Source: a virus. From it: a stretch of 34,653 nt of DNA. Shown piece by piece: positions 5,486 to 34,420 of the stretch (position 1 is its first letter; every line of letters starts with the position of its first letter). Made by a program: the position numbers and the translations under genes. The stretch covers positions 1 to 34,653 of the IMG/VR virus record IMGVR_UViG_3300047409_000414; one strand, given 5' to 3'. The notes beneath the pieces are model-generated. The model worked only from the letters and a program-made list of their open reading frames with translations, made no database searches and was not told the origin of the DNA.

Positions 5486-6001
5486 ATGACCTACTGGGCC
5501 ATTGCGCAGGTCCAGCCGCAGCGGCTGGCAATCACCAAAACGCTGCTCGATCGTGCTGGCTACGAAATCTACGCGCCCCGCGTCCGCACCCGTCGCCAAG
5601 CAACCGTGCCTGGCGGCCTCTCCTCGCTGCTGTTCCCAGGTTACTTGTTCGTGCGCATCACCGACGGCCGGTTCTACCCGGTGCGCTACACGCCCGGCGT
5701 GGTGCGTCTGCTGATGACCGGCGAATGTCCCGCGCGCATGCCCGAGCGCGAAATCGATGGCCTGCGACGGCGTGAGGTCAAAGGGTTCATCTGGCTGCCG
5801 CCCCGGGTTCCTCGGATCGGCGCCAGGATGCGGATCATCAGTGGGCCCTTCGCTGGGCACCTTGCCCTCTTCGAGGGTATGGCCAGCGGCGATCGACTGC
5901 GCGTCCTGTTCGATTTTCTTGGCAGCGCGGTGCGGATCGAGCTCCCCGGGCACGCAGTGGAACCACAAGATGTTGCAATCAACCGTGGTTTGAGATACTA
6001 G
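5486..6001 (+). CDS. NusG/RfaH-type transcription antitermination factor paralogue
   Basis: A 171-residue protein with NusG architecture: an N-terminal NGN domain (YWAIAQVQPQRLAITKTLLDRAGYEIYAPR at 3-32, then LFPGYLFVRI at 49-58, GVVRLL at 71-76), then a KOW domain (about 112-153: GARMRIISGPFAGHLALFEGM, then RVLFDFLGSAVRIELP). NusG-family proteins ride on RNA polymerase, suppress pausing and couple it to Rho, ribosomes or cis signals. Specialised paralogues (RfaH, LoaP) act on long operons with leader signals. This one lies immediately before a 319-bp structured leader and the late operon. An antiterminator for late genes is therefore the leading hypothesis. It lacks the acidic N-terminal extension seen in some housekeeping NusG proteins. 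Confidence 0.9.
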   Translation: MTYWAIAQVQPQRLAITKTLLDRAGYEIYAPRVRTRRQATVPGGLSSLLFPGYLFVRITDGRFYPVRYTPGVVRLLMTGECPARMPEREIDGLRRREVKGFIWLPPRVPRIGARMRIISGPFAGHLALFEGMASGDRLRVLFDFLGSAVRIELPGHAVEPQDVAINRGLRY

Positions 6002-6320: not shown

Positions 6321-6875
6321 ATGAGGACGTGGTTACTTGCGTTCGCGATTGTGCTGGCCATGCCGGCGTCGAGCAAAGCTGCCATCATCGCCGACCTCGG
6401 CGACAATCCCACCTCGGCCACTGGCCACTTCAGCAACAATGTCGGAGGAACGACGTTCGCCGATCAGTATACGTTCAACCTGACCGGCGCACCGCAATTC
6501 ATTGCCTTCGCGTCGGCGACAAATGACTTCATCTCGCCAGCCGACTTCATCACCTCGTTCGCAGGACAGCTCTTCAACTCCGGCCCCAACAACGTACCTG
6601 GAGGTGGAGACGACTTTGCTGTCAATCCTGCGGTGCTTGCTGTTGCATGCCCGACGAACCCCCTGGGGTGTCAGGTCTTGGCTGGTACGGCCCTGCTCGA
6701 TGCCGGTCATTATTTTCTGAACCTGGCTGGTACTGGCGGCGGTACGGCTGGCTATGGCGGTGATCTCACCAGCCGTGCCGTGCCCGGTCCCGTCGCCGGT
6801 GCGGGGTTGCCAGGGCTGGCGATGGCAATCGGGGGCTTGCTGCTCTGGGGGCGACGCCGTCGTCACCCGACTTGA
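6321..6875 (+). CDS. Exported protein with PEP-CTERM-like sorting tail
   Basis: A 184-residue secreted protein. It has a signal peptide (1-20, MRTWLLAFAIVLAMPASSKA), then a Gly/Asn-rich beta-type domain with FADQYTF at 46-52, which recalls the FxDxF class of PEP-CTERM proteins. The end is tripartite: VPGP (154-157), hydrophobic GAGLPGLAMAIGGLLLW, and RRRR (178-181). That layout is the signal for exosortase-like processing, with VPGP in place of PEP. Such proteins are normally bacterial and linked to surface polysaccharide. In a phage it is most likely a lysogenic-conversion gene altering the host surface, or a protein placed in the envelope during infection. Two internal Cys (110 and 117) may form a disulfide. 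Confidence 0.75.
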   Translation: MRTWLLAFAIVLAMPASSKAAIIADLGDNPTSATGHFSNNVGGTTFADQYTFNLTGAPQFIAFASATNDFISPADFITSFAGQLFNSGPNNVPGGGDDFAVNPAVLAVACPTNPLGCQVLAGTALLDAGHYFLNLAGTGGGTAGYGGDLTSRAVPGPVAGAGLPGLAMAIGGLLLWGRRRRHPT

Positions 6876-10506: not shown

Positions 10507-12387
10507 ATGTCCACGATCTACAAGACCACCGCCGCTGCAGGCGAAGGCGATCTGGAATTTGTTCTGTCGGACGACACCGTCGACCGCATGGGCGACGTCA
10601 TCGACGCTTCGGGCTGGAAGCTTTCGGAGTTCAAGAAAAATCCGATCGCGCTATTTGGCCATTCAAGCTCGTTCCCGATCGGGAATTGGTCAGACGTTCG
10701 CGTCGATGGCAACAAGCTCATCGGCAAGCTTGAGTTTGCCAAGCGTGGCACTAGCGCCCGCATTGATGAGTTAATCAGCTTGGTCGAGCAGCGAGTGTTA
10801 CGCGCGGTTTCGGTCGGGTTCGAGCCGATCGAGTACGAGCCGCTCGACAAGGAAAAGCCCTACGCCGGTCAACGATTCAAAAAGCAGAACTTGCTGGAAG
10901 CGTCACTGGTGGCGGTGCCGGCGAATCCGGCGGCGCTGCAATTGGCAAAGTCCCTCAAAATCTCCGACGAAACTCTGTCCTTAGCCTTTGGCGAGCATGC
11001 CGGCGTGAGGCGCAAGGACATCCCAACAACTGGCGAGCACGCCGCGACATCTCCTGCCTATAGGGCAACCAAAATGCAAACGCTTCCACAGCGCATCGAG
11101 GATGCGCAAAACGAACTCGTCGCCAAACGTGACAAGCTTACCGAGCTCAACGCCGCCGATACGCTCGATCTTGACGCTATCGAAGAACTGAACGATCAGA
11201 TCGTTCTTTGCGAGCGCTCGCTTGCAGCAATGAAGGCGTCCGAGGCCAAGATCGGCATCAACGCCGCCAAGGCCGAGACGCCTTCACAAGCCGTCGCTCG
11301 TCGGCCGCTCGGCATCAGCCAGCGCGAGGTCAAGGGAATTGACCTGTTCGTGCGCGCGATGGTCGTCCGCGGCTGCGCAAAATTCGGGAACAAGCCGATC
11401 GAGCGGGTGCTGGAGGAACGCTATCCCGGTCACGAGGCTACCGCCTACATCGCCAAAGCCGACCAGACCGTGGGCACGACCACCGTGTCCGGCTGGGCCT
11501 CCGAACTGGTGCAGCAATCCTGGGCGGAATTCCTGCAGGCATTGACCGGGTTCTCGATTTACCCGGCGTTGCGTGCCGGCGGCATCGGCCTGAGTTTCGA
11601 CGGCGTCGGAACCATCAACCTGCCGAGCCGCACCGCTGGCGGCGCCGGCGGCGGGTTCGTCGCGGAAGGCTCGCCCATCCGTGTCGGCCGCATCACCACC
11701 GCACCCACGACGATGACGCCAAGGAAACTTGGTGTGATCGTGCCCTTTACCCGCGAGCTGGCAAAACGATCGACGCCCTCGATCGAAGCCTTGGTTAGGC
11801 AAGCCATTCTTGAGGATACATCGGTCATCCTTGATGCAGCACTTCTCGACAACGTCGCATCGAGCACGGCGAGGCCGGCAGGTCTGCTTAACGGCGTCTC
11901 GGCGACCGCGACTGGCGCGGCCGGCGGCAACTTTGCCGCCATCGTCGCCGACTTCAAAGCGTTGCTCGCGCCGTTCTATGCAGCCAATGCCGCTGACAAC
12001 ATCACCGTCATCATGAACCCGGCGCAGGGGCTATCCCTCGCCTTGACGCCTGATTCCATGGGTCAGTTCGGATGGTCCCAGGCCATCACGAACCGCCTCA
12101 AGATCATCGAATCGACGCACGCGACTGCCAATCGCATCATCGCAATCCGCAATTCTGACTTTGCCACTGCGCTCGGCGATACGCCTGAGTTCGACGTCTC
12201 GGAATCCGCCACCGTTCATATGGAAGATACTACTCCTTTGGAAATCGTGGCCGGAACACCTACGACGGCAGACCCCGTAAGGTCGTTTTTCCAGACCGCA
12301 ACGATCGGTGTGAGAATGCTCATGGACGTGTCGTGGAAAATGCGCCGGTCGGGAATGGTTTCTTGGATCGACACCACCACCTGGTGA
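10507..12387 (+). CDS. Fused prohead protease - major capsid polyprotein
   Basis: A 626-residue protein; ATG 10507 follows AAGGAG, while the long open frame upstream is a TerL shadow. Residues of about 10-150 are an HK97-type prohead protease (U35/S78): His52 in LFGHSSS and Ser102 in VSVGFEP are the expected catalytic residues, and LLEASLVAVPANPAA (129-143) is the family motif. Residues of about 190-255 form a charged coiled coil with the look of a scaffold or delta domain. From about 290 on is an HK97-fold major capsid protein (GTTTVSGWASELVQQ, FVAEGSPI, ILDAALLD). Most relatives encode protease and capsid separately. Fusion implies self-cleavage of a polyprotein during head maturation. Confidence 0.93.
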   Translation: MSTIYKTTAAAGEGDLEFVLSDDTVDRMGDVIDASGWKLSEFKKNPIALFGHSSSFPIGNWSDVRVDGNKLIGKLEFAKRGTSARIDELISLVEQRVLRAVSVGFEPIEYEPLDKEKPYAGQRFKKQNLLEASLVAVPANPAALQLAKSLKISDETLSLAFGEHAGVRRKDIPTTGEHAATSPAYRATKMQTLPQRIEDAQNELVAKRDKLTELNAADTLDLDAIEELNDQIVLCERSLAAMKASEAKIGINAAKAETPSQAVARRPLGISQREVKGIDLFVRAMVVRGCAKFGNKPIERVLEERYPGHEATAYIAKADQTVGTTTVSGWASELVQQSWAEFLQALTGFSIYPALRAGGIGLSFDGVGTINLPSRTAGGAGGGFVAEGSPIRVGRITTAPTTMTPRKLGVIVPFTRELAKRSTPSIEALVRQAILEDTSVILDAALLDNVASSTARPAGLLNGVSATATGAAGGNFAAIVADFKALLAPFYAANAADNITVIMNPAQGLSLALTPDSMGQFGWSQAITNRLKIIESTHATANRIIAIRNSDFATALGDTPEFDVSESATVHMEDTTPLEIVAGTPTTADPVRSFFQTATIGVRMLMDVSWKMRRSGMVSWIDTTTW

Positions 12388-13290: not shown

Positions 13291-14682
13291 TTGGCTATCC
13301 TCGCAAAGATATTCGGCGGCAAAGCAAAGGCCGCCGTTCCGGCCGAAGGCCAATACCGTCCAGGGCCGTACTATCTGAACGACGGAGCGCATAGCGGCTG
13401 GCTGTCTGCAACCGCCGGCCGGTTCTGGAACTGGTGGCAGATGGGCTACTCGTTGCAGTCCTATGGCGACGGCGGCGCTATGGTCGAAGCGTGCGTTTCG
13501 GCCTATTCGCAAACCGTCGCCATGCTCCCTGGCGACCATTGGACATCGGTCGCGAACGGCGGGCGTGAACGTGTCACCACGTCGGCGCTGGCGCGGATCA
13601 TTCGCAGTCCGAATGATTATCAGTCGATGTCGGATTTGCTGCTGAATTTGACGCGGCGGCTTTACACCAAGGGCGAAGCATTCGCCGTCGCCATCCGCAA
13701 TAATCGGTTTGAAATCGACGAATTGCACTGGATGCGCGACGGCTATCCCAACATCGCCGAGGACGGCTCGATATTCTATTCGCTCTATGGCAACGAGGTC
13801 GTGGAGCGACGGTTTAATCTGGCCTATCCGATTCCCGCGCGCGACGTGTTGCACGTCCGGCTGCATACGCCGCGGCACCCGTTGCGAGGGCAGAGTCCAA
13901 TCGTCGCGGCTGCGCTCGAGTTGGAAATGTCGGGCGCGGCGCTGAGCCAGCAGGTCGCCTTCTATCTCAACCAGGCGCGGCCCTCGTTCATCCTGGAAAC
14001 GGACGAGAAACTGACGACGGCGCAGGCGAAGGATTTGCGTGAATTTTGGAATGCGCAAACGCAAGGGGAGAACGCGGGCGGCACGCCAATTTTGAGCTGG
14101 GGCCTGAAATCAAAACCGATCACGGTTGGTGCCAGTGACACGCAGCTTGCCGACATGCTCAAGTGGACCGACCAGCATGTGGCGCTGGCGTTTCGGATGC
14201 CGCTGCAAATCCTCGGCATTGGCGGGACACCGTTCGCCTCGACCGAAGCACTGATGTCGTCGTGGAAATCTACGGGCTTGGGCTTTGCGATCAATCACAT
14301 CGAGGAAGCGATCGGGAAGCTGTTCGCTTTGCGAGGCTACCCGGACGAATACATCGAGTTTGACACCAACGCGCTGCTGCGGTCGTCATTCAAGGAGCGC
14401 ATCGAGGCGCTCAGCATCGGCACCAGGCGCCTGTACACGATCAACGAGGCGCGGGCCGAAGAGGGCCTCGCGGCCAAGCCCGGCGGCGACGAGCTGCTGG
14501 TGCAGATGCAGGACATACCGTTGAGCCAGGCCGGCAAGACGCAGCAACCTGCTCCTGCCCTGCCGGCGCCGGGTGACGACCCGTCTGGTGATGGGGCCGC
14601 CGATGACACCGCCCCGGTAAAGAGCCATGAGCACATCCGCAAATTCCGCGCAGCGCAAGCCGCCCATGCCCTCGCCGCTTGA
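13291..14682 (+). CDS. Portal protein (HK97 family)
   Basis: A 463-residue protein if started at TTG 13291 (AILAKIFGG, a typical portal N-terminus), two bases after the upstream stop. A GTG at 13246 would add 15 residues overlapping the previous gene without a visible ribosome binding site. The portal pattern is clear: MVEACVSAYSQTVAMLPGDHW, then LLLNLTRRLYTKGEAFA, VLHVRLHTP, QSPIVAAALELEM, the clip/stem helices, then LNQARPSFILE and ALAFRMPLQILG. Twelve copies form the DNA channel at one capsid vertex and dock TerL and the connectors. The C-terminus is Pro/Asp-rich and overlaps the next gene by 56 bp. Confidence 0.93.
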   Translation: MAILAKIFGGKAKAAVPAEGQYRPGPYYLNDGAHSGWLSATAGRFWNWWQMGYSLQSYGDGGAMVEACVSAYSQTVAMLPGDHWTSVANGGRERVTTSALARIIRSPNDYQSMSDLLLNLTRRLYTKGEAFAVAIRNNRFEIDELHWMRDGYPNIAEDGSIFYSLYGNEVVERRFNLAYPIPARDVLHVRLHTPRHPLRGQSPIVAAALELEMSGAALSQQVAFYLNQARPSFILETDEKLTTAQAKDLREFWNAQTQGENAGGTPILSWGLKSKPITVGASDTQLADMLKWTDQHVALAFRMPLQILGIGGTPFASTEALMSSWKSTGLGFAINHIEEAIGKLFALRGYPDEYIEFDTNALLRSSFKERIEALSIGTRRLYTINEARAEEGLAAKPGGDELLVQMQDIPLSQAGKTQQPAPALPAPGDDPSGDGAADDTAPVKSHEHIRKFRAAQAAHALAA

Positions 14683-15505
14683 CGATCTCGCCGAGGAGCT
14701 CGGCACCGTCGCCGGCCGCATCGAGCGGGAGGCCGCCCTGCGCATCGGCGCCGCGATTGCCGACCTGCAGCGGCAGGAGGCCGAGCGGGCGCTCGCCTTC
14801 GATCGGTTGTCACGCAAGGTCGAGGATGTTTTGTCGGGCGTTCGCCCGCCCGAACGTGGCGAGGCCGGACCCGCTGGTCCTCCCGGTCCGGCCGGCGCGC
14901 GTGGCGAGGATGGGGCGCCAGGGGCGGGTGGTGTAGCGGGCCCCCCCGGCGAATGCGGCCAGCGCGGCCTGGAGGGCGAATGCGGGCCCACCGGCGCCCG
15001 CGGCGAGGCCGGCGCCCCCGGAAAGCTGCCGAAGGTCGCCGCCTGGACCGACGTCGTCCATTACGAGGGGCATGTCGTCACCCATAACGGGTCCTTGTTC
15101 CAGGCGCAGCGCGATACCGCGCGCGAGCCGCCGCATGACGATTGGGCGTGCGTCGCGGCAGCCGGCCGGGCTGGGAACGACGGCCGCTCGCTCAACGTGC
15201 GGGGCACCTACGACGCCGCGATCGACTATTCCGAATTGCACGTCGTCGCATTCAATGGCGCATCGTTCATCGCCCGGCGCGACAATCCCGGTCCGTGTCC
15301 CGGCCCAGGCTGGCAGTTGATCGCCTCGCCGGGCAAGCGTGGCGACAAGGGCGAGCGCGGCGTGAAGGGCGACCGGGGCGAGCCAGGGATGGCCGTGGTT
15401 GCCTTGGCAATTGCCGATGATGGGCTCCTGCGGCTGACGAACGGCGACGGGTCGGCCGTCGAGCTCGATCTCTACCCGCTACTGGCAAGGATTGCGCAGC
15501 ATTGA
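14627..15505 (+). CDS. Collagen-like protein with two carbohydrate-binding-like modules
   Basis: A 292-residue protein; ATG 14627 overlaps the portal end, and ATG 14666 is an alternative. An N-terminal helix (about 15-70) could be a trimerising coiled coil or virion anchor. Nineteen unbroken Gly-X-Y triplets occupy 78-134, including two Cys in GEC triplets that might lock strands. Two related modules follow (137-178 and 191-233: V-H/Y-x-G-x-V-x-x-x-GxxF-A-R-D, Pro, W), resembling chitin-binding-type CBM5/12 folds. A second run of seven triplets (235-255) and a short beta tip end the protein. It is probably a fibre projecting from head or neck that binds polysaccharide. Two collagen-like proteins in one phage is uncommon. 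Confidence 0.8.
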   Translation: MSTSANSAQRKPPMPSPLDDLAEELGTVAGRIEREAALRIGAAIADLQRQEAERALAFDRLSRKVEDVLSGVRPPERGEAGPAGPPGPAGARGEDGAPGAGGVAGPPGECGQRGLEGECGPTGARGEAGAPGKLPKVAAWTDVVHYEGHVVTHNGSLFQAQRDTAREPPHDDWACVAAAGRAGNDGRSLNVRGTYDAAIDYSELHVVAFNGASFIARRDNPGPCPGPGWQLIASPGKRGDKGERGVKGDRGEPGMAVVALAIADDGLLRLTNGDGSAVELDLYPLLARIAQH

Positions 15506-16986: not shown

Positions 16987-18246
16987 ATGCCCGTCGTCGC
17001 AGAAACCAGAGCCGAACGGCTCGCCTACAAGATTTACACCGACCCGTTGATCCAGTCGCAGACGCAGCCAGATCCTGCGACTGATCCTGGCCCGACCTTG
17101 GGACAGGTCTTGCGCTATCTGTCGCACGACCTGCAATTGACCAAGGACCAGTATCGGGCAACCGAGATGCGGGCAGATCGGCAGCGTCCGATGGGCAACG
17201 ACGGCTCGAAGACGATCGCCGGCACCATCAAAGGATATCTCAGTGCCGGGACGCAGCAGGACTTCTTTGCGGCCATCATGCGCAATACCTGGACGGCCGG
17301 ATCTACCGCGAGCGAGGCCGAGCTGACGTCGATTGCCTTTTCCAAGACCGGCAAGACGATCACGTTCGGCGGCGGCGACCCGGTTGTTGAAGGGCTCGGC
17401 GCCGGGCAGACGATCGCCGTCACCGGCATCACCGGGCTCAATCTCGGCCAGCGGTTCTCGATCGTCAGCTTCAGCGGGACCGGCAACCGGGTCGCGCATG
17501 TGTTTCCGGCACCGGCCGAGGACCTCGCCGCGGCAACGACGTTCAGCATCGGCAGCGTCGGCAAAACCCTGGTCAACCCGAATGCCACGCTCGACTTCGT
17601 CAATTACAAATTCGCGATCGAGGTTTACAACCCGGAAACCGACCTGGCGCGGCTCTACACCGAATGCCGCGTCGGCAGCATGGACCTCGACATTCCGGTC
17701 AACGACAACCCGAAGCTTGATTTCGGCGTCATGGGCCGCGGCCGGACGCTCTACAAGGCGGCTGCGGCGCCGTTTCTAACCGGGCCAGCCGACGAGACCT
17801 CGTCCGACATCCCGACCGCCATGGATGGCTTGCTGATATTCAACGGCTTGCCGTTCGGCGTCGCGACCAGCGTCAAGATTTCGATCAAGCTCAATCCGCA
17901 GCCGGCCAAGGTCATCAACCCGCAAGGCCTGGTCGCGGCGATCTTCCTCGAGGACTTCCTGTGCGACGGCACGTTCGCAGCCTATGTCGATGATACGCAG
18001 CTCTTCGATCTGCATTCCGACAATACCGAGTTTGGCCTGCTGATCCATTTGCCGGCGCAGCCGAGCTCGCCCACGACCTCGGCCACGTCGTTCTTTCTGC
18101 CGCGCATCCGCATTCTGACGCTGCAGGAGACGGACAGTGCCGGCGGCAAAATGGTCAACTGCACCTTCGAGGCTGCGCGCTACTTCGGCACCGCGCCCGG
18201 CGTACCGTCGACAACCCTGCAGATCAGCGACACCAACGTCGCATAA
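16987..18246 (+). CDS. Major tail (tube) protein
   Basis: A 419-residue protein with ACAGGAGCC before ATG 16987. It follows the phage tail-tube pattern: RAERLAYKIYT at the start, then YLSHDLQLTKDQYRATEMRADRQRP, GSKTIAGTIKGYLSAGTQQDFFAAIMR, and a C-terminal NCTFEAARYFG. Residues of about 115-185 (SKTGKTITFGGG...VEGLGAGQTIAVTGITG) look like an inserted Ig-like or beta domain that would decorate the tube. The protein polymerises as rings around the tape measure. The size is larger than minimal tube proteins (about 200-300), consistent with the insertion. Confidence 0.87.
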   Translation: MPVVAETRAERLAYKIYTDPLIQSQTQPDPATDPGPTLGQVLRYLSHDLQLTKDQYRATEMRADRQRPMGNDGSKTIAGTIKGYLSAGTQQDFFAAIMRNTWTAGSTASEAELTSIAFSKTGKTITFGGGDPVVEGLGAGQTIAVTGITGLNLGQRFSIVSFSGTGNRVAHVFPAPAEDLAAATTFSIGSVGKTLVNPNATLDFVNYKFAIEVYNPETDLARLYTECRVGSMDLDIPVNDNPKLDFGVMGRGRTLYKAAAAPFLTGPADETSSDIPTAMDGLLIFNGLPFGVATSVKISIKLNPQPAKVINPQGLVAAIFLEDFLCDGTFAAYVDDTQLFDLHSDNTEFGLLIHLPAQPSSPTTSATSFFLPRIRILTLQETDSAGGKMVNCTFEAARYFGTAPGVPSTTLQISDTNVA

Positions 18247-18256
18247 AGAGGAATCC

Positions 18257-18733
18257 ATGGCTTCAAAATTCGCCGCACTGGCGGCCGATGTCTCGGCGTC
18301 GTTCAAGGTCGAACTGCGCGATCCACGAACCGACATGGTGCTGCGCGACGGCGATGGAAACGCCTCCTATATCGACGTGCTCTCGACCGATTGCGAACGT
18401 GCGCGCGAATTCGAGAAGGGCAAGCGCAAGGACCTGCGCCAACGGATCATGCGATCGAGAACCGGGACCATCGACACCTCGGATCAGATCGAGGACAACA
18501 TCGCGCTGTTATCCATCCTGACGGTCGGCTGGCATCTGGTCGATCTGCGCGGCGAGGTCATCGATATTCCCTGCACGCCGGACAACGCCGCCGAGCTCTA
18601 CAGCGAGCCGGGGTTGGCATATGTTTTCAACGCAGTCTGGTTTGCGGCTAACAGTGTCGCAAATTTTTTGCCGGCCGGGTCGCCGACCTCGTCCGCTACG
18701 GGGAATGGGCGTTTGCAAACCAGCGCCGACTGA
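18257..18733 (+). CDS. Tail assembly chaperone, short form (gpG-like)
   Basis: A 158-residue protein (ATG 18257, AGAGGAATCC upstream). It sits between tail tube and tape measure genes, where siphophages encode gpG/gpGT chaperones that hold the tape measure while the tube assembles. The sequence is mostly alpha/beta with acidic patches (DRTGTIDTSDQIEDNIALLSILTVGWHL). A slippery heptamer at 18661-18667 lies near its 3' end. Ribosomes that do not slip finish this short form, ending GNGRLQTSAD. It is not detectably similar to lambda gpG by eye; the call rests on position and the frameshift. Confidence 0.85.
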   Translation: MASKFAALAADVSASFKVELRDPRTDMVLRDGDGNASYIDVLSTDCERAREFEKGKRKDLRQRIMRSRTGTIDTSDQIEDNIALLSILTVGWHLVDLRGEVIDIPCTPDNAAELYSEPGLAYVFNAVWFAANSVANFLPAGSPTSSATGNGRLQTSAD

Positions 18734-19101
18734 ACGACGGCGGCAGCGAGGGCGAGCACCTCGGCGCCGCTGCGGCGACGCTGCGCAAGATCGGCCGCGG
18801 CGACAAGGCCAGGGCGATCAACGAGGATGGGGCGCCGCCGTTCCCGTTCGAGCTGGAATACCTCTGGTTTACATTCCACGACATCTCGATGGGCCTCGCC
18901 GCGACCGGCATGGCGGTGCCGGCCATCACCTGGGAAACACTGCAGGCTTACGAGCTGCTCGAGGGGTCGCTCGATCCGTGGGAGCGCCGGGCGCTGATGC
19001 GGCTCTCGAGCGCGCGCGCACACACTCTCTCGATCCGGCCGGAACCAGCAAAGGACTTAGCCTCACATGGGCGTAAGCTTTCGCGTCGATCCGATCGATA
19101 A
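18257..19101 (+). CDS. Tail assembly chaperone, -1 frameshift long form (gpGT-like)
   Basis: The long form joins 137 codons of the short frame to 144 codons in the -1 frame, about 281 residues. The site is A-AAT-TTT (18661-18667), an X-XXY-YYZ heptamer correctly phased in the short frame. After slipping, translation continues FAGRVADLVRYGEWAFANQRRL and ends at TAA 19099-19101. The -1 frame is clearly coding (LEYLWFTFHDISMGLAATGM, ITWETLQAYELLEG). It is closed upstream by TAA at 18649-18651 and has no ATG, GTG or TTG before 18889, so it needs the frameshift. A small stem (GGTC/GACC, 18678-18688) lies downstream. The T domain recruits the tape measure in the lambda model. Confidence 0.88.
18661..18667 (+). 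promoter_or_regulatory. Programmed -1 ribosomal frameshift site
   Basis: The heptamer AAATTTT is read A-AAT-TTT in the zero frame. Both tRNAs can re-pair after slipping back one base (AAT to AAA, TTT to TTT). It is the expected signal in the tail-chaperone position of long-tailed phages and opens the only route into the downstream coding frame. Confidence 0.87.
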
Positions 19102-19723
19102 GATGACCAGGACGCTGCTCGCTGGGTTGAACGAGCAGCGCAAGGTCATGGCCGCGCAATTCGCGCGCGAGGAGATCGCTAAGGCCGAGGCGATCAACAA
19201 AGCGGCGACCGGCGGCGAGGTCAAATATACCGTTTCGGTCGATGGCCGCGTCGGCGCCCCGCTCGAGAGCGTCAACACCAAGGGCGGCTCGATCATCGTC
19301 GAATTCAATCTCGGCACCGACGTGCTGCGCTGGATCGCCGACAAGCTCAAGGCGCGCTCGCCGTCGCGCAGCGGGCGCTATATCGCCGCGCAGATCATGC
19401 TCGCAGATGGGCGCGAGGTCTCGCCCTACGGGCGGGTGCCGCCGGCCGATCTCTATACGTTTGTCGATACGGCGCCCTATGCGGCCAAGATCGAAATGGG
19501 CAAGACCAAGTCTGGGCGGAGCTTCACTATCAACGCCTCGAACGCGCGGGTCTATGACCGCACCGCCAAGGAGGCGCGTAGTCTGTTCAAAGACATTGCG
19601 GATATCAAGTACGGCTTCACGTCGTTGGCGCAGTCCTACACGTTCCGTACCCACGGGCGAACGCGCCGCCAGGGCGGTGCGGCCAGGTCTGGGGCGATCT
19701 TTGTCAAGATGAAGGGCTTCTAG
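19067..19723 (+). CDS. Tail-associated protein between chaperone and tape measure (HK97 gp10-like?)
   Basis: A 218-residue protein with ATG 19067 overlapping the end of the frameshifted chaperone by 35 bp. An N-terminal helix (IDKMTRTLLAGLNEQRKVMAAQFAREEI) leads into a beta-rich region. The region SPSRSGRYIAAQIM, then TFVDTAPYAAKIEMGKTKSGRSF, resembles the HK97 gp10 family of neck/tail proteins, which however usually lie before the tail tube. The C-terminus is basic (RTHGRTRRQ). Its role in tail assembly is inferred from location; the exact family is uncertain. Confidence 0.75.
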   Translation: MGVSFRVDPIDKMTRTLLAGLNEQRKVMAAQFAREEIAKAEAINKAATGGEVKYTVSVDGRVGAPLESVNTKGGSIIVEFNLGTDVLRWIADKLKARSPSRSGRYIAAQIMLADGREVSPYGRVPPADLYTFVDTAPYAAKIEMGKTKSGRSFTINASNARVYDRTAKEARSLFKDIADIKYGFTSLAQSYTFRTHGRTRRQGGAARSGAIFVKMKGF

Positions 19724-19726
19724 ATC

Positions 19727-22700
19727 ATGGCGACGACGCAAGAGGCCATCGCGCGGCTGCGGATGATCTTTGAGACGCAAGGCGCCGACGCGGCTGCGGC
19801 CGAGATGAAGAAGCTTGAGGCGTCGACGACCAGCCTGGGGACGAGCTCGCTCAATCTCGACCGCGCCTTTACCGGGCTCGAGCGACGCTACAGCGAGACG
19901 GCGCGGGCTACGGCCGAGTATGAGCGATCGATGCGGACGCTCAACGCCGCGGTCGCGCAGAACCCCGCGCTGGCCGAGCGGGCGGCGGCGGTGCAACAGA
20001 CGATTACTGCGCGTTATCAGGCGACCATGCAGGCGGCACAGCAGGCGGCGCATGCACAGACGGCGCTCGGGCAGGTCAACCAGGCGGCGCAGTCGCAGAT
20101 GCAGGGCTTGGCGGCGTCAACGGGCCTGTTGGGCTCGACGCTCTCGACGCTCGGTAGGGCTGGAACAGTTGCGGCTGTCGGCATCGGCGGCCTCTATCTC
20201 GGCTTTCAGAAACTCGACGAGGGCGTCACCAGGACCGCGCAGTATGCGCGGGACCTGAAGAATTTCAGCGAGGCGACCGGCTTGAGCACGGCACAGGTGC
20301 AAGGGTTGAATAAGGAGGCTTCCAAATTCGGCATTGATATCGACCAGCTACATGGTGGCTTGTTGCGGTTCACCGCCGGAATTGAAGAATTGAAGCAGGG
20401 GTCCGGCTCGCTGCTCACTTCCATTCGCGGAGTGGACAGCGGTCTGGCCGATCAGATGCAGAATGCCAGGGGCGAGGCCGAAGCGCTGGGCTTGCTTGCA
20501 CAGGCTGTCCAGCGGGCGGGCAACGAATTCCAGCGCGCGCAGATTGCCAGGGCTGCCTTCGGTAGGCAGGGCCTTGGTCTGCTGCCGCTCTTGCAGAGCC
20601 TTGATGTTGGCGACATTGCCCAAAAATTTTCGGCCAAGGGATTGTCGGAGAGCGTCATCAACGAGATGAACAAGTTGCAATCGGCTATCGACGCGTTGGG
20701 AACCAGCATTGACAAGAAAATCTATGCCTCGTTCGGCGAGTCCTGGCTGAAGTCGAAGCTTTCATTCCTGGAATATGTCGACGCCGTGGTGAAAAACATC
20801 GGCAAGGTTAACGAGACAGCCAAAGAGAACCGCGCGGTTGAGGAGATCAATGCACAGTCTAACGCCGTGAAGGATCTGCAGACATACGTTGACCGGCTGC
20901 AGAAATCTGTTGACGAGTCTGGCGGCGCTATGGGCCGTCTATTTGGCGGCCCGCAGGCCGCGGCGCTCGATACCTATAAGGAAAAGCTCAAGCAGGCGAA
21001 TGCAGAGCTGGACAAGCTTCTCGAGGAGCGCACGAACAAGGCGTTGCCGCTACCGGCACAAGCGCCGGATCTGCTGCCAGCGTCATCGGGCCAATCTATT
21101 GACGATTTGAAGAAGACCATCAATGCCTACAAGGAACTGCAAAGCGCAATTGGCAATCTCATACCTGTGCAGCAGCAGGTAGCCGCCGAGGCCGCGCGGC
21201 TGGAACTGGCCGCAAGAACAGGGCCGTCCGAATACAAGGCTCAGATTGAGCAAGCGACTGCGGCGTTGCTTGCGCTCAAAACCGTTCAGGCCGAGATGTC
21301 GCAAGTCGCGCCCGGCACCTATGAGCGGCAGCTCGAGCAAATCCAGGCGATGAAGGCGGAATATCCCGGCTTGGTCGCGCAGGACGCGATTCGTCTGGCG
21401 GAGATGCAGGCTCAGCTTCGCGTTGCGCAGGCCGTGACCGGCGTGCAGCGAATGCAAGCGCAAGAGCAGGCCACCTATGTTCAGCTTGTGAGGCAAGGCG
21501 TCGCGCCGGAACTCGCGATGACAATGGCCAAGAAGCAGACCGCCATTGCACAGGCGCAGATCAACGCCCAGGCGCAGCAACAATTGCTCAGTTTGCGGAA
21601 TCAGGCCGGCGTCGCGGCAGCGGTGACCGGCGAGGAGAAGATACGCGCGCAACAGATCGCGACAATCAACTCGCTCTTGCAGCAAGGCGTTGACCTCGAG
21701 ACCGCAACCGCCATTGCCGCGCGCGAGCGGGCCAATGCGGAGGCGACGGTCAATGCGCAAGTACAGCAGCAGGTTTTCAAATTGAATGAATCGACGGAAT
21801 TGATCCGCGCGCAGATCAAAGACCTGCAAGCACAGGCCGGCCAAGCGCAGACAATTCTCGGCATCAACGAAATGAACGTCCGCACCCAGCAGGCTTTCAA
21901 CGATGCCATTCGCCAGGGCGCCAGCGACGAGGCGGCTTCGGCGGTCGCCGCGGCGACGTACAATAATCTCTTGGCGCAGCGGGCGATGCAAATCGCGCAG
22001 ATTAACGCGCAGCAGTTGCAGCAGCAGCAGTCGCCACGAGACAGCGGCGTCGGCGGCGACAATAAGGGCGCCCTTCCGGGTCAGGAGTTCCTCCCAGCGA
22101 GAACCGGCCTGCTGCCGGGGGCGGGGCAAGTGCTCTCGGAGATCGAGTCGTATGCCCAGGCAGGATCGGCGGCAGCGAGGCAGTTTTTGGCGAGCGAAAG
22201 CGCGGGGGGGATGTTGGCGAGCCGGGACTTGAGCGAGCTCGTGGCGAAGATGAAGCAAGAGGCCGCGCTCGGACCGATACTGCAGCAATACCAGCAGACG
22301 CAGGATCAGGCGCTGCAGCAGCTTGTATCACTGCAGAACCAGGGGCGCCTGGGCGCTGCCGGCACACCGCAGGAGAAGGCGCAAATCCAGGCGCAGATCA
22401 CCTATGAGGACCTGATCAAGCAAGGCGTGGCATCCGATCTCGCGCACCAGATCGCCAACCAGGAATTGGCGAACGCGATGCAGGACCTGGCAAAGTCGGT
22501 CGATGCCAATACCAGCGCACTGCAGGACCAGCTCGATCCGATCTACACCGAAGGCAGGGCGGCACTGCGTATCGGCTATTACGGTGAGGGCTCGGGCGGC
22601 ACCATGCGCACCGTTACCGGGACGGGCTACGCCAACGACAATACCGGACGCGCTGCCGGTGGCGACGTCTATGCCGGACGCGCCTACATGATTGGCGAGC

Positions 22701-22903
22701 GTGGTCCCGAACTGTTCGTCCCCGGCGCCTCCGGTACGATCGTCCCGAACGCCGCGCTGCAGGGCGGCGCTAATGCAGCGCAGAGCGGCAACGTCGTCAT
22801 CATCAATAACAACTTCCCGCCCGGCGCCGTGATGGGCGACCGCAGGACGCAGTATCAGGCCGCCAACAGTTACGGCCGCGCTGTCGCGGCTATGGGGGCT
22901 TGA
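19727..22903 (+). CDS. Tape measure protein
   Basis: A 1058-residue, Ala/Gln-rich, mostly helical protein, the longest gene in the window and directly after the chaperone, as expected for the tape measure. Residues 1-110 are coiled coil. A hydrophobic Gly-rich segment (about 134-165, LGRAGTVAAVGIGGLYLGF) may insert in the host membrane. Residues of about 564-766 and 873-912 hold four related units of about 63 residues. The C-terminus has RAYMIGERGPELFVPGASGTIVPN, a common tape-measure ending, split here as RAYMIGERGPELF plus VPGASGTIVPN. At roughly 0.15 nm per residue a tail of about 150 nm is expected (family rule, inference). Confidence 0.92.
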   Translation: MATTQEAIARLRMIFETQGADAAAAEMKKLEASTTSLGTSSLNLDRAFTGLERRYSETARATAEYERSMRTLNAAVAQNPALAERAAAVQQTITARYQATMQAAQQAAHAQTALGQVNQAAQSQMQGLAASTGLLGSTLSTLGRAGTVAAVGIGGLYLGFQKLDEGVTRTAQYARDLKNFSEATGLSTAQVQGLNKEASKFGIDIDQLHGGLLRFTAGIEELKQGSGSLLTSIRGVDSGLADQMQNARGEAEALGLLAQAVQRAGNEFQRAQIARAAFGRQGLGLLPLLQSLDVGDIAQKFSAKGLSESVINEMNKLQSAIDALGTSIDKKIYASFGESWLKSKLSFLEYVDAVVKNIGKVNETAKENRAVEEINAQSNAVKDLQTYVDRLQKSVDESGGAMGRLFGGPQAAALDTYKEKLKQANAELDKLLEERTNKALPLPAQAPDLLPASSGQSIDDLKKTINAYKELQSAIGNLIPVQQQVAAEAARLELAARTGPSEYKAQIEQATAALLALKTVQAEMSQVAPGTYERQLEQIQAMKAEYPGLVAQDAIRLAEMQAQLRVAQAVTGVQRMQAQEQATYVQLVRQGVAPELAMTMAKKQTAIAQAQINAQAQQQLLSLRNQAGVAAAVTGEEKIRAQQIATINSLLQQGVDLETATAIAARERANAEATVNAQVQQQVFKLNESTELIRAQIKDLQAQAGQAQTILGINEMNVRTQQAFNDAIRQGASDEAASAVAAATYNNLLAQRAMQIAQINAQQLQQQQSPRDSGVGGDNKGALPGQEFLPARTGLLPGAGQVLSEIESYAQAGSAAARQFLASESAGGMLASRDLSELVAKMKQEAALGPILQQYQQTQDQALQQLVSLQNQGRLGAAGTPQEKAQIQAQITYEDLIKQGVASDLAHQIANQELANAMQDLAKSVDANTSALQDQLDPIYTEGRAALRIGYYGEGSGGTMRTVTGTGYANDNTGRAAGGDVYAGRAYMIGERGPELFVPGASGTIVPNAALQGGANAAQSGNVVIINNNFPPGAVMGDRRTQYQAANSYGRAVAAMGA
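21416..22462 (+). repeat. Four ~63-residue repeats in the tape measure
   Basis: Units begin at residues 564, 627, 704 and 873. The first two are adjacent and each exactly 63 residues. The third follows a 14-residue linker. The fourth is partial. Shared positions include T at 20, a QGV/QGA at 27-29 followed by an acidic or Pro residue, an Ala-rich helix, and N-A-Q near 50. Repeats let tape measures change length, and so tail length, in steps. Confidence 0.7.
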
Positions 22904-33235: not shown

Positions 33236-34420
33236 CTATTTCACCACCCGCAGCCGCTTGCGGCGCGTGGTCTGCTCGCTGCGCTCGATCTCAGCATCCC
33301 AGAGCGCCACAACTTGCGCGTTTATCCGCCGGGTGTCGGCGGTGCGCGAATAATAGTTGGCCATGCCGTCCGATCGATGCCCGGTCACCGACTTGACGCC
33401 GGCCGCGCCCACGCCGAGCGAGGCCACATCGGCAGCGGCATTCTTGCGCAGCCCGTGCATGCTCAGCGACTTGGTCCCGATCGCGGCCAACCCGATTTTG
33501 ATGAGATGACGTCGGATCGCGTGACTGAGGTTTTCCGCGCTCGACCATGATCGGCCGAAATCGTTCACCAGGATCGTGTCGGCGGCTCGCGGCGCCGCCG
33601 CCAAGGCCTCGCGCAACGGGCGTGGGCACAGATGATAGTTGGGCTGGTCTTGCGCTTTGCGGTTGCCCTTTTCCGGCGTCACCAAAATGCCGCGACCGTC
33701 GAACTGCGACCAGGCCATCTTGATGCAGTCGCCGCCGCGTTGGGCCCCGAAGTGCAGCAGTAATTTTGCCAACCGCAAATGCGCTGGCGCCGTCGCCATG
33801 AACAACGCCTCGGCTTCGTCCGACCACGGCACATGCGGGCGCTTCACCTGATAGCGGCGCTCTGCTTCCAGGGTCGGATTGGGCACGCCCTTGATCCCGA
33901 ATTGCGGATGCTTCTTGCAAACCTTCCAGATGTTCGACAACAGCATCACATGCAAGCGAGCGGTTGAAGGACCATGTGCGATGGTGAGCTGCTCGGAGTA
34001 AATGTCGACCGCATCGGTGTCGAGATCGGCTAAGCGGCAATGGGTGATCGGTCCACACCGCATCGCGCTCAATCCCTTCTCATAGGCGGCGCGAGTCCCC
34101 GGCTTTTTGTCCGTGAACGCCAGCGAGGCCCGATAGCACTCAATCGCGGCGATGATGGTCCCCGGCTGCACGACGCGATCGCGGGGTAGCACTTCGGTGG
34201 CGCCCACGATCGCGAACAGGGGCCTGCCGACCTCGGCCGGCGGCCCCTGCTTCAGCGAGTTGATGCAAGCCGCATAGCAGCGCCGGAATTCCGGGCTACT
34301 CTCATCATCGGGCAATCGCGTCAGATGCCCGCCCGGCGCGCGGAAGTAAACATAGCTGCCGCGGCGGTAGAGGTATTTAAGCTTTGCCTTTTCGGCGTTG
34401 GGCTTTGAGCCTTTCATCAT
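33236..34420 (-). CDS. int: Tyrosine recombinase integrase
   Basis: A 394-residue site-specific recombinase. The N-terminus (about 14-40) is a small beta arm-binding-like domain (KYLYRRGSYVYFRAPGGHLTRLP). The core-binding region is about 85-185 and the catalytic domain about 195-370. Catalytic residues visible: Arg228 (FGAQRGGD), Lys251 (TPEKG), His322 and Arg325 (MHGLRK), His348 (TGHRSD) and nucleophile Tyr356 or Tyr357 (ANYYSRT). It integrates and, with an excision factor, excises the genome. The first 44 bp overlap the AlpA-like gene upstream, so both are co-transcribed. The family is common among prophages and islands of Rhizobiales. Confidence 0.92.
   Translation of the reverse strand: MMKGSKPNAEKAKLKYLYRRGSYVYFRAPGGHLTRLPDDESSPEFRRCYAACINSLKQGPPAEVGRPLFAIVGATEVLPRDRVVQPGTIIAAIECYRASLAFTDKKPGTRAAYEKGLSAMRCGPITHCRLADLDTDAVDIYSEQLTIAHGPSTARLHVMLLSNIWKVCKKHPQFGIKGVPNPTLEAERRYQVKRPHVPWSDEAEALFMATAPAHLRLAKLLLHFGAQRGGDCIKMAWSQFDGRGILVTPEKGNRKAQDQPNYHLCPRPLREALAAAPRAADTILVNDFGRSWSSAENLSHAIRRHLIKIGLAAIGTKSLSMHGLRKNAAADVASLGVGAAGVKSVTGHRSDGMANYYSRTADTRRINAQVVALWDAEIERSEQTTRRKRLRVVK

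Follow-up and report, generated by a model that had tools for sequence, protein, structure and literature searches.

How does a long open reading frame come to be translated when it carries no start codon of its own? The question is raised by a locus in the viral DNA of IMG/VR record IMGVR_UViG_3300047409_000414, which we analysed over its whole length of 34,653 nucleotides (hereafter the window). Here, two open reading frames, termed G and T, follow the tail tube gene and precede that of the tape measure, with one extra gene before the latter (Table 1); T lies in the -1 frame relative to G, overlaps it and lacks its own start. On the sequence evidence set out below, we consider it highly probable (about 95%) that the locus encodes a lambda-type G/GT tail assembly chaperone pair, expressed via programmed -1 ribosomal frameshifting.

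Reading frames of the chaperone locus

A base-by-base check confirmed all coordinates of the original prediction, which had placed a slippery heptamer, A_AAT_TTT, in phase with the G frame, AAT (18662–18664) and TTT (18665–18667) being in-frame codons. It lies 23 codons before the G stop, where the last part of G overlaps the -1 frame. The -1 frame behaves as had been described, with a TAA directly upstream, after which it stays open over positions 18652–19101 (149 codons, 144 of them past the heptamer), and its first ATG, GTG or TTG is found at 18889, within the conserved Phage_TAC_18 domain. The following gene overlaps T by 35 nucleotides.

This absence of a start before 18889 disfavours independent initiation, in which T would be translated alone, through re-initiation or an internal start. 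Truncated T reading frames with their own start are often seen in public records (OP596612.1 and phage phiH1), but in the window the earliest such start falls inside the conserved domain and the conservation of T begins right at the slip site, making this explanation extremely improbable. The same records bear on a further claim, that ordinary gene calling loses the fusion and leaves a false gap: the fusion is indeed lost, but what takes its place is more often a truncated T reading frame from an internal start than a clean gap.

Table 1 Features of the chaperone locus and of related loci. Positions are those of the window, except in the last two rows.
Feature	Position	Strand	Evidence
Tail tube (major tail) protein, adjoining G on its 5′ side	16987–18246	+	Pfam Phage_tube_2, E 3.9e-18
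0-frame tail assembly chaperone G (gpG-like), 158 aa	18257–18733	+	ORF, ATG at 18257, stop at 18733
TAA shutting the -1 frame, just 5′ of the slip site	18649–18651	+	Sequence
Slippery heptamer A_AAT_TTT, in phase	18661–18667	+	Sequence; most relatives within the lineage carry A_AAT_TTY at this position
Second in-phase heptamer T_TTT_TTG, overlapping the first; alternative or additional slip site	18664–18670	+	Lost in A_AAT_TTC relatives
T domain, -1-frame extension, 144 codons + stop	18667–19101	+	Phage_TAC_18 PF23812 match; pN/pS
Phage_TAC_18 match inside the -1 frame	18805–19002	+	Residues 52–117 of translated 18652–19101
Gene between T and tape measure, 218 aa	19067–19723	+	phrog_16336 (unknown function), E 4e-29
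Tape measure protein	19727–22903	+	phrog_1538 tail length tape measure, E 2.2e-5; position, length
T of locus L027	2968–3387		Sub-branch without X_XXY_YYZ
T of loci L033/L035	2749–3336		Sub-branch without X_XXY_YYZ

Elsewhere in the window, a tyrosine integrase is encoded on the minus strand (33236–34420), indicating that the phage is probably temperate. One reading frame (10510–12387) fuses a prohead protease (Peptidase_S78) to an HK97-type major capsid protein, and also matches the protease/capsid fusion model NF045541, below its cut-off. Directly after the portal gene lies a collagen-like repeat protein (14627–15505; Pfam Collagen, E 5.7e-11). We also observed a NusG/RfaH-like transcription antitermination factor (5486–6001; Pfam NusG, E 1.2e-11; RfaH, E 1.1e-19, below its cut-off) and, near it, an unusual cargo gene (6321–6875), whose product is predicted to be secreted and partially matches FxDxF PEP-CTERM proteins (E 1.8e-8, below cut-off).

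Homology and frame-specific selection

An open -1 frame is in itself weak evidence in this genome, since at a GC content of 62.5% the window holds 88 stop-to-stop runs of at least 149 codons, only ~30 of which are genes. The +1 frame is likewise open (18621–19076, 151 aa); as a candidate gene it was rejected, having no Pfam match and a pN/pS of 1.58, and the same frame shuts earlier in a relative (L015). In-phase X_XXY_YYZ heptamers number 11 in the 9136 codons of the plus-strand genes of the window, so that the chance of finding one in the 26-codon overlap is ~3%, or ~1% for heptamers of the A/T/G-then-A/T types. The arrangement is nonetheless far beyond chance once homology, selection specific to one frame and the heptamer's conservation among relatives are all considered.

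The product of the -1 frame matched Phage_TAC_18 (PF23812, 'Phage tail assembly chaperone') at 29.4 bits, above the curated cut-off of 27, and its counterparts in relatives scored 34–103 bits. For G, there was a weak match to phrog_313, 'Tail assembly chaperone' (E 0.049), and a sequence search with the G domain found no match in the PDB. The window showed no Rfam matches, and no plasmid relatives were found. We aligned the T domain across 19 sequences and G across 17, the latter including relatives at 15–89% identity; the only residues invariant in the G alignment are M1 and F137, F137 being the Phe of the slip codon.

Selection was measured on the window and four close relatives. Among these five sequences, the variable columns are distributed over the three codon positions as 25/10/52 for G in frame 0 and as 14/12/33 for T in the -1 frame, with pN/pS values of 0.18 for G and 0.32 for T, whereas the T DNA read in the two other frames gives 1.15 and 1.58. 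Both G and T are thus under purifying selection, and codon-position variability and pN/pS change frame at the proposed slip point. By its own terms, the original prediction would have fallen had the -1 frame encoded nothing conserved in relatives; it passes this test, as the frame encodes a Phage_TAC_18 domain under purifying selection, which keeps its frame relation to G, with a slippery heptamer in phase, in relatives down to ~25% identity.

These comparisons also bear on the notion that the locus is one chaperone reading frame split by gene breakage or a sequencing error. A one-base indel can yield a -1 relation between two reading frames; however, the same split recurs in independent metagenome contigs and in genomes of diverse phages, both parts are under purifying selection, and no single-frame version was seen among the relatives examined. 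A broken gene is therefore effectively excluded.

In the same five sequences, a 38-nucleotide run without variation (18635–18672), the second longest among them, spans the slip site and reaches ~26 nucleotides 5′ of the heptamer, into single-frame coding DNA; it is possibly an extended frameshift signal, or possibly due to chance.

The predicted slip site and its variants

Under programmed -1 frameshifting, most ribosomes would translate G to its stop and produce the short chaperone, while at A_AAT_TTT the Asn (AAU) and Phe (UUU) tRNAs would sometimes slip one base back onto AAA and UUU. A slipped ribosome would then read the -1 frame as far as 19101, for a predicted GT product of 137 + 144 = ~281 aa with the junction NF/FAGR.

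The site is identical in close relatives (83–90% identity), and in relatives at ~40% identity the aligned position holds A_AAT_TTC or A_AAT_TTT, while T_TTT_TTC, T_TTT_TTG or A_AAA_AAG occur in more distant ones. The same layout, with A_AAT_TTT, A_AAT_TTC or T_TTT_TTB (B = C/G/T), is kept at ~40% and at 25–30% identity.

To this we add a second in-phase heptamer, T_TTT_TTG, which was absent from the original account. It overlaps A_AAT_TTT, and the GT junction may therefore read NFLAGR besides NFFAGR. The shift could even take place mainly at T_TTT_TTG, or at both sites, with NFLAGR accompanying or replacing NFFAGR: this heptamer is in phase in the window and in all close relatives, and one distant relative (L005/L028) carries it alone. 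Relatives at ~40% identity, however, have dropped T_TTT_TTG and kept A_AAT_TTY at the same position, which marks A_AAT_TTY as the lineage-wide site and leaves a principal or shared role of the second heptamer conceivable but unlikely.

We surveyed the T domain more widely, using PF23812 matches in 397 genomes, all from the order that contains the Rhizobiaceae metagenome-assembled genome L034, together with viral and phage loci, made distinct at <70% T identity (n = 43). T was found in a -1-compatible frame of an overlapping upstream reading frame in 38 of 43 loci, the frame tally of 38:3 being biased towards -1 because this frame was tested before +1. Of these 38 loci, 33 had an in-phase slippery heptamer of the usual types in the overlap (33 of all 43). 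Free of the above bias is the count of overlap heptamers by phase, with 36 in the correct phase and 1 in each of the other two. Loci whose T frame is open far upstream, such as L065, were missed by the automated survey and proved positive when checked by hand; in-phase heptamers were found by hand in all of eight loci of a second order and in L065.

The relatives and the phase count together speak to a different source of GT, namely RNA polymerase slipping on the T6 run (18664–18669) and adding a base, so that GT would be made from an altered mRNA. A T6 run following A3 is found in the window and its close relatives. Nevertheless, relatives with AAATTTC or AAATTTTA, in which the longest run is no more than 4, keep the frame relation unchanged, again with an in-phase heptamer, and the strict 36:1:1 phasing is no requirement of polymerase slipping. 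Persistence of the frame relation in A_AAT_TTC relatives that have no run disfavours transcriptional slippage, which we regard as very improbable, and ribosomal slipping at the heptamer is the reading that we retain.

Four surveyed loci (L027, L033, L038 and L053) keep the -1 relation without any X_XXY_YYZ heptamer. At the slip position all have a Ser codon, TCT or AGT, then the Phe codon TTT and an A, a context that would allow only a single-tRNA (U_UUU) slip, with which their sequences are compatible.

Stimulatory elements were sought around the slip site of the window. The minimum free energy of 18661–18760 was no better than that of dinucleotide shuffles (z +0.5), relatives showed neither compensatory base-pair changes near the slip site nor a consistent folding signal, and no clear Shine-Dalgarno-like element was found 5′ of it. 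With neither a stimulatory structure nor a clear Shine-Dalgarno-like element, the frameshift rate may be low. For comparison, the GeneTack study reports -1 products of 6–7% for two tail chaperone genes of phages (PMC3711429). A fuller scenario would combine a double slippery site, A_AAT_TTT/T_TTT_TTG, working unaided by stimulatory RNA structure or Shine-Dalgarno-like elements and giving two GT junction isoforms, with a sister branch in which a single-tRNA U_UUU slip (TCT/AGT_TTT_A) replaces the in-phase heptamer; as a whole, we hold this to be doubtful.

Comparison with known chaperone pairs

Slipping, its efficiency and the role of the products in tail assembly are what we infer here. As in lambda, two overlapping reading frames lie between tail tube and tape measure; the first contains a -1 slip heptamer close to its end, and the second has no start of its own. 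The lambda slip site is G_GGA_AAG. Unlike lambda, the present locus has an A_AAT_TTT site, a T of the Phage_TAC_18 family and an extra gene between T and the tape measure. The lambda tape measure is bound by numerous gpG and a small number of gpGT molecules, T serving to recruit the tube subunit (PMC5009743, reviewing Levin 1993; Xu 2004, 2013, 2014). By analogy, many copies of G and few of GT would coat the tape measure protein encoded here, the expected chaperone partner, and the T part of GT would bring in tail tube subunits.

A further parallel is offered by Pseudomonas phage vB_Pae-Kakheti25 gp18/gp19 (NC_017864), which has the same gene order of tail tube, G, GT, a gene at the HK97-gp10 position and tape measure. 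In its record, GT is a joined CDS described by the words 'projected programmed translational frameshift', and its T belongs to the same Pfam family, Phage_TAC_18 (E 1.1e-29). The Kakheti25 slip site, A_AAA_AAC, is two codons away from the stop, whereas the heptamer here lies much further upstream. A G/GT frameshift is also predicted for gp12/gp13 of Acinetobacter phage vB_AbaS_Loki, which likewise has an HK97 gp10-like gene between chaperones and tape measure and, unlike here, an AAAAAAC motif adjoining the stop codon (PMC5313236). The gene at 19067–19723 sits at the position of these HK97 gp10-like genes (Neck1 in Kakheti25), a likeness of position alone.

Bradyrhizobium phage ppBdUSDA122-1 (OP596612.1) shares the A_AAT_TTT heptamer, in phase, and a Phage_TAC_18 T domain ~26–30% identical to that of the window. 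No frameshift is annotated in its record, which labels the 0-frame reading frame 'branched-chain amino acid ABC transporter' and lists T, in truncated form, as a hypothetical protein. In phage PaMx28 (NC_028931, 1116–1595), comparison with phage phiH1 suggests that the G frame is disrupted near T_TTT_TTC, which is perhaps a sequencing indel in a partial genome.

Our analysis corrects the annotation of a lineage of alphaproteobacterial phages and prophages that lack an annotated GT and carry wrong names for some of its parts. It also provides a comparative set in which the heptamer varies (A_AAT_TTY, T_TTT_TTN, A_AAA_AAN, G_GGA_AAN) while the T domain is homologous, serving frameshift prediction; the understanding of tail assembly is unchanged. 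With the gene order of Kakheti25, a projected GT frameshift on record there and the same T family, the locus points to an ordinary lambda-type G/GT -1 frameshift, a known phage device that is new only as a member, in a little-annotated lineage.
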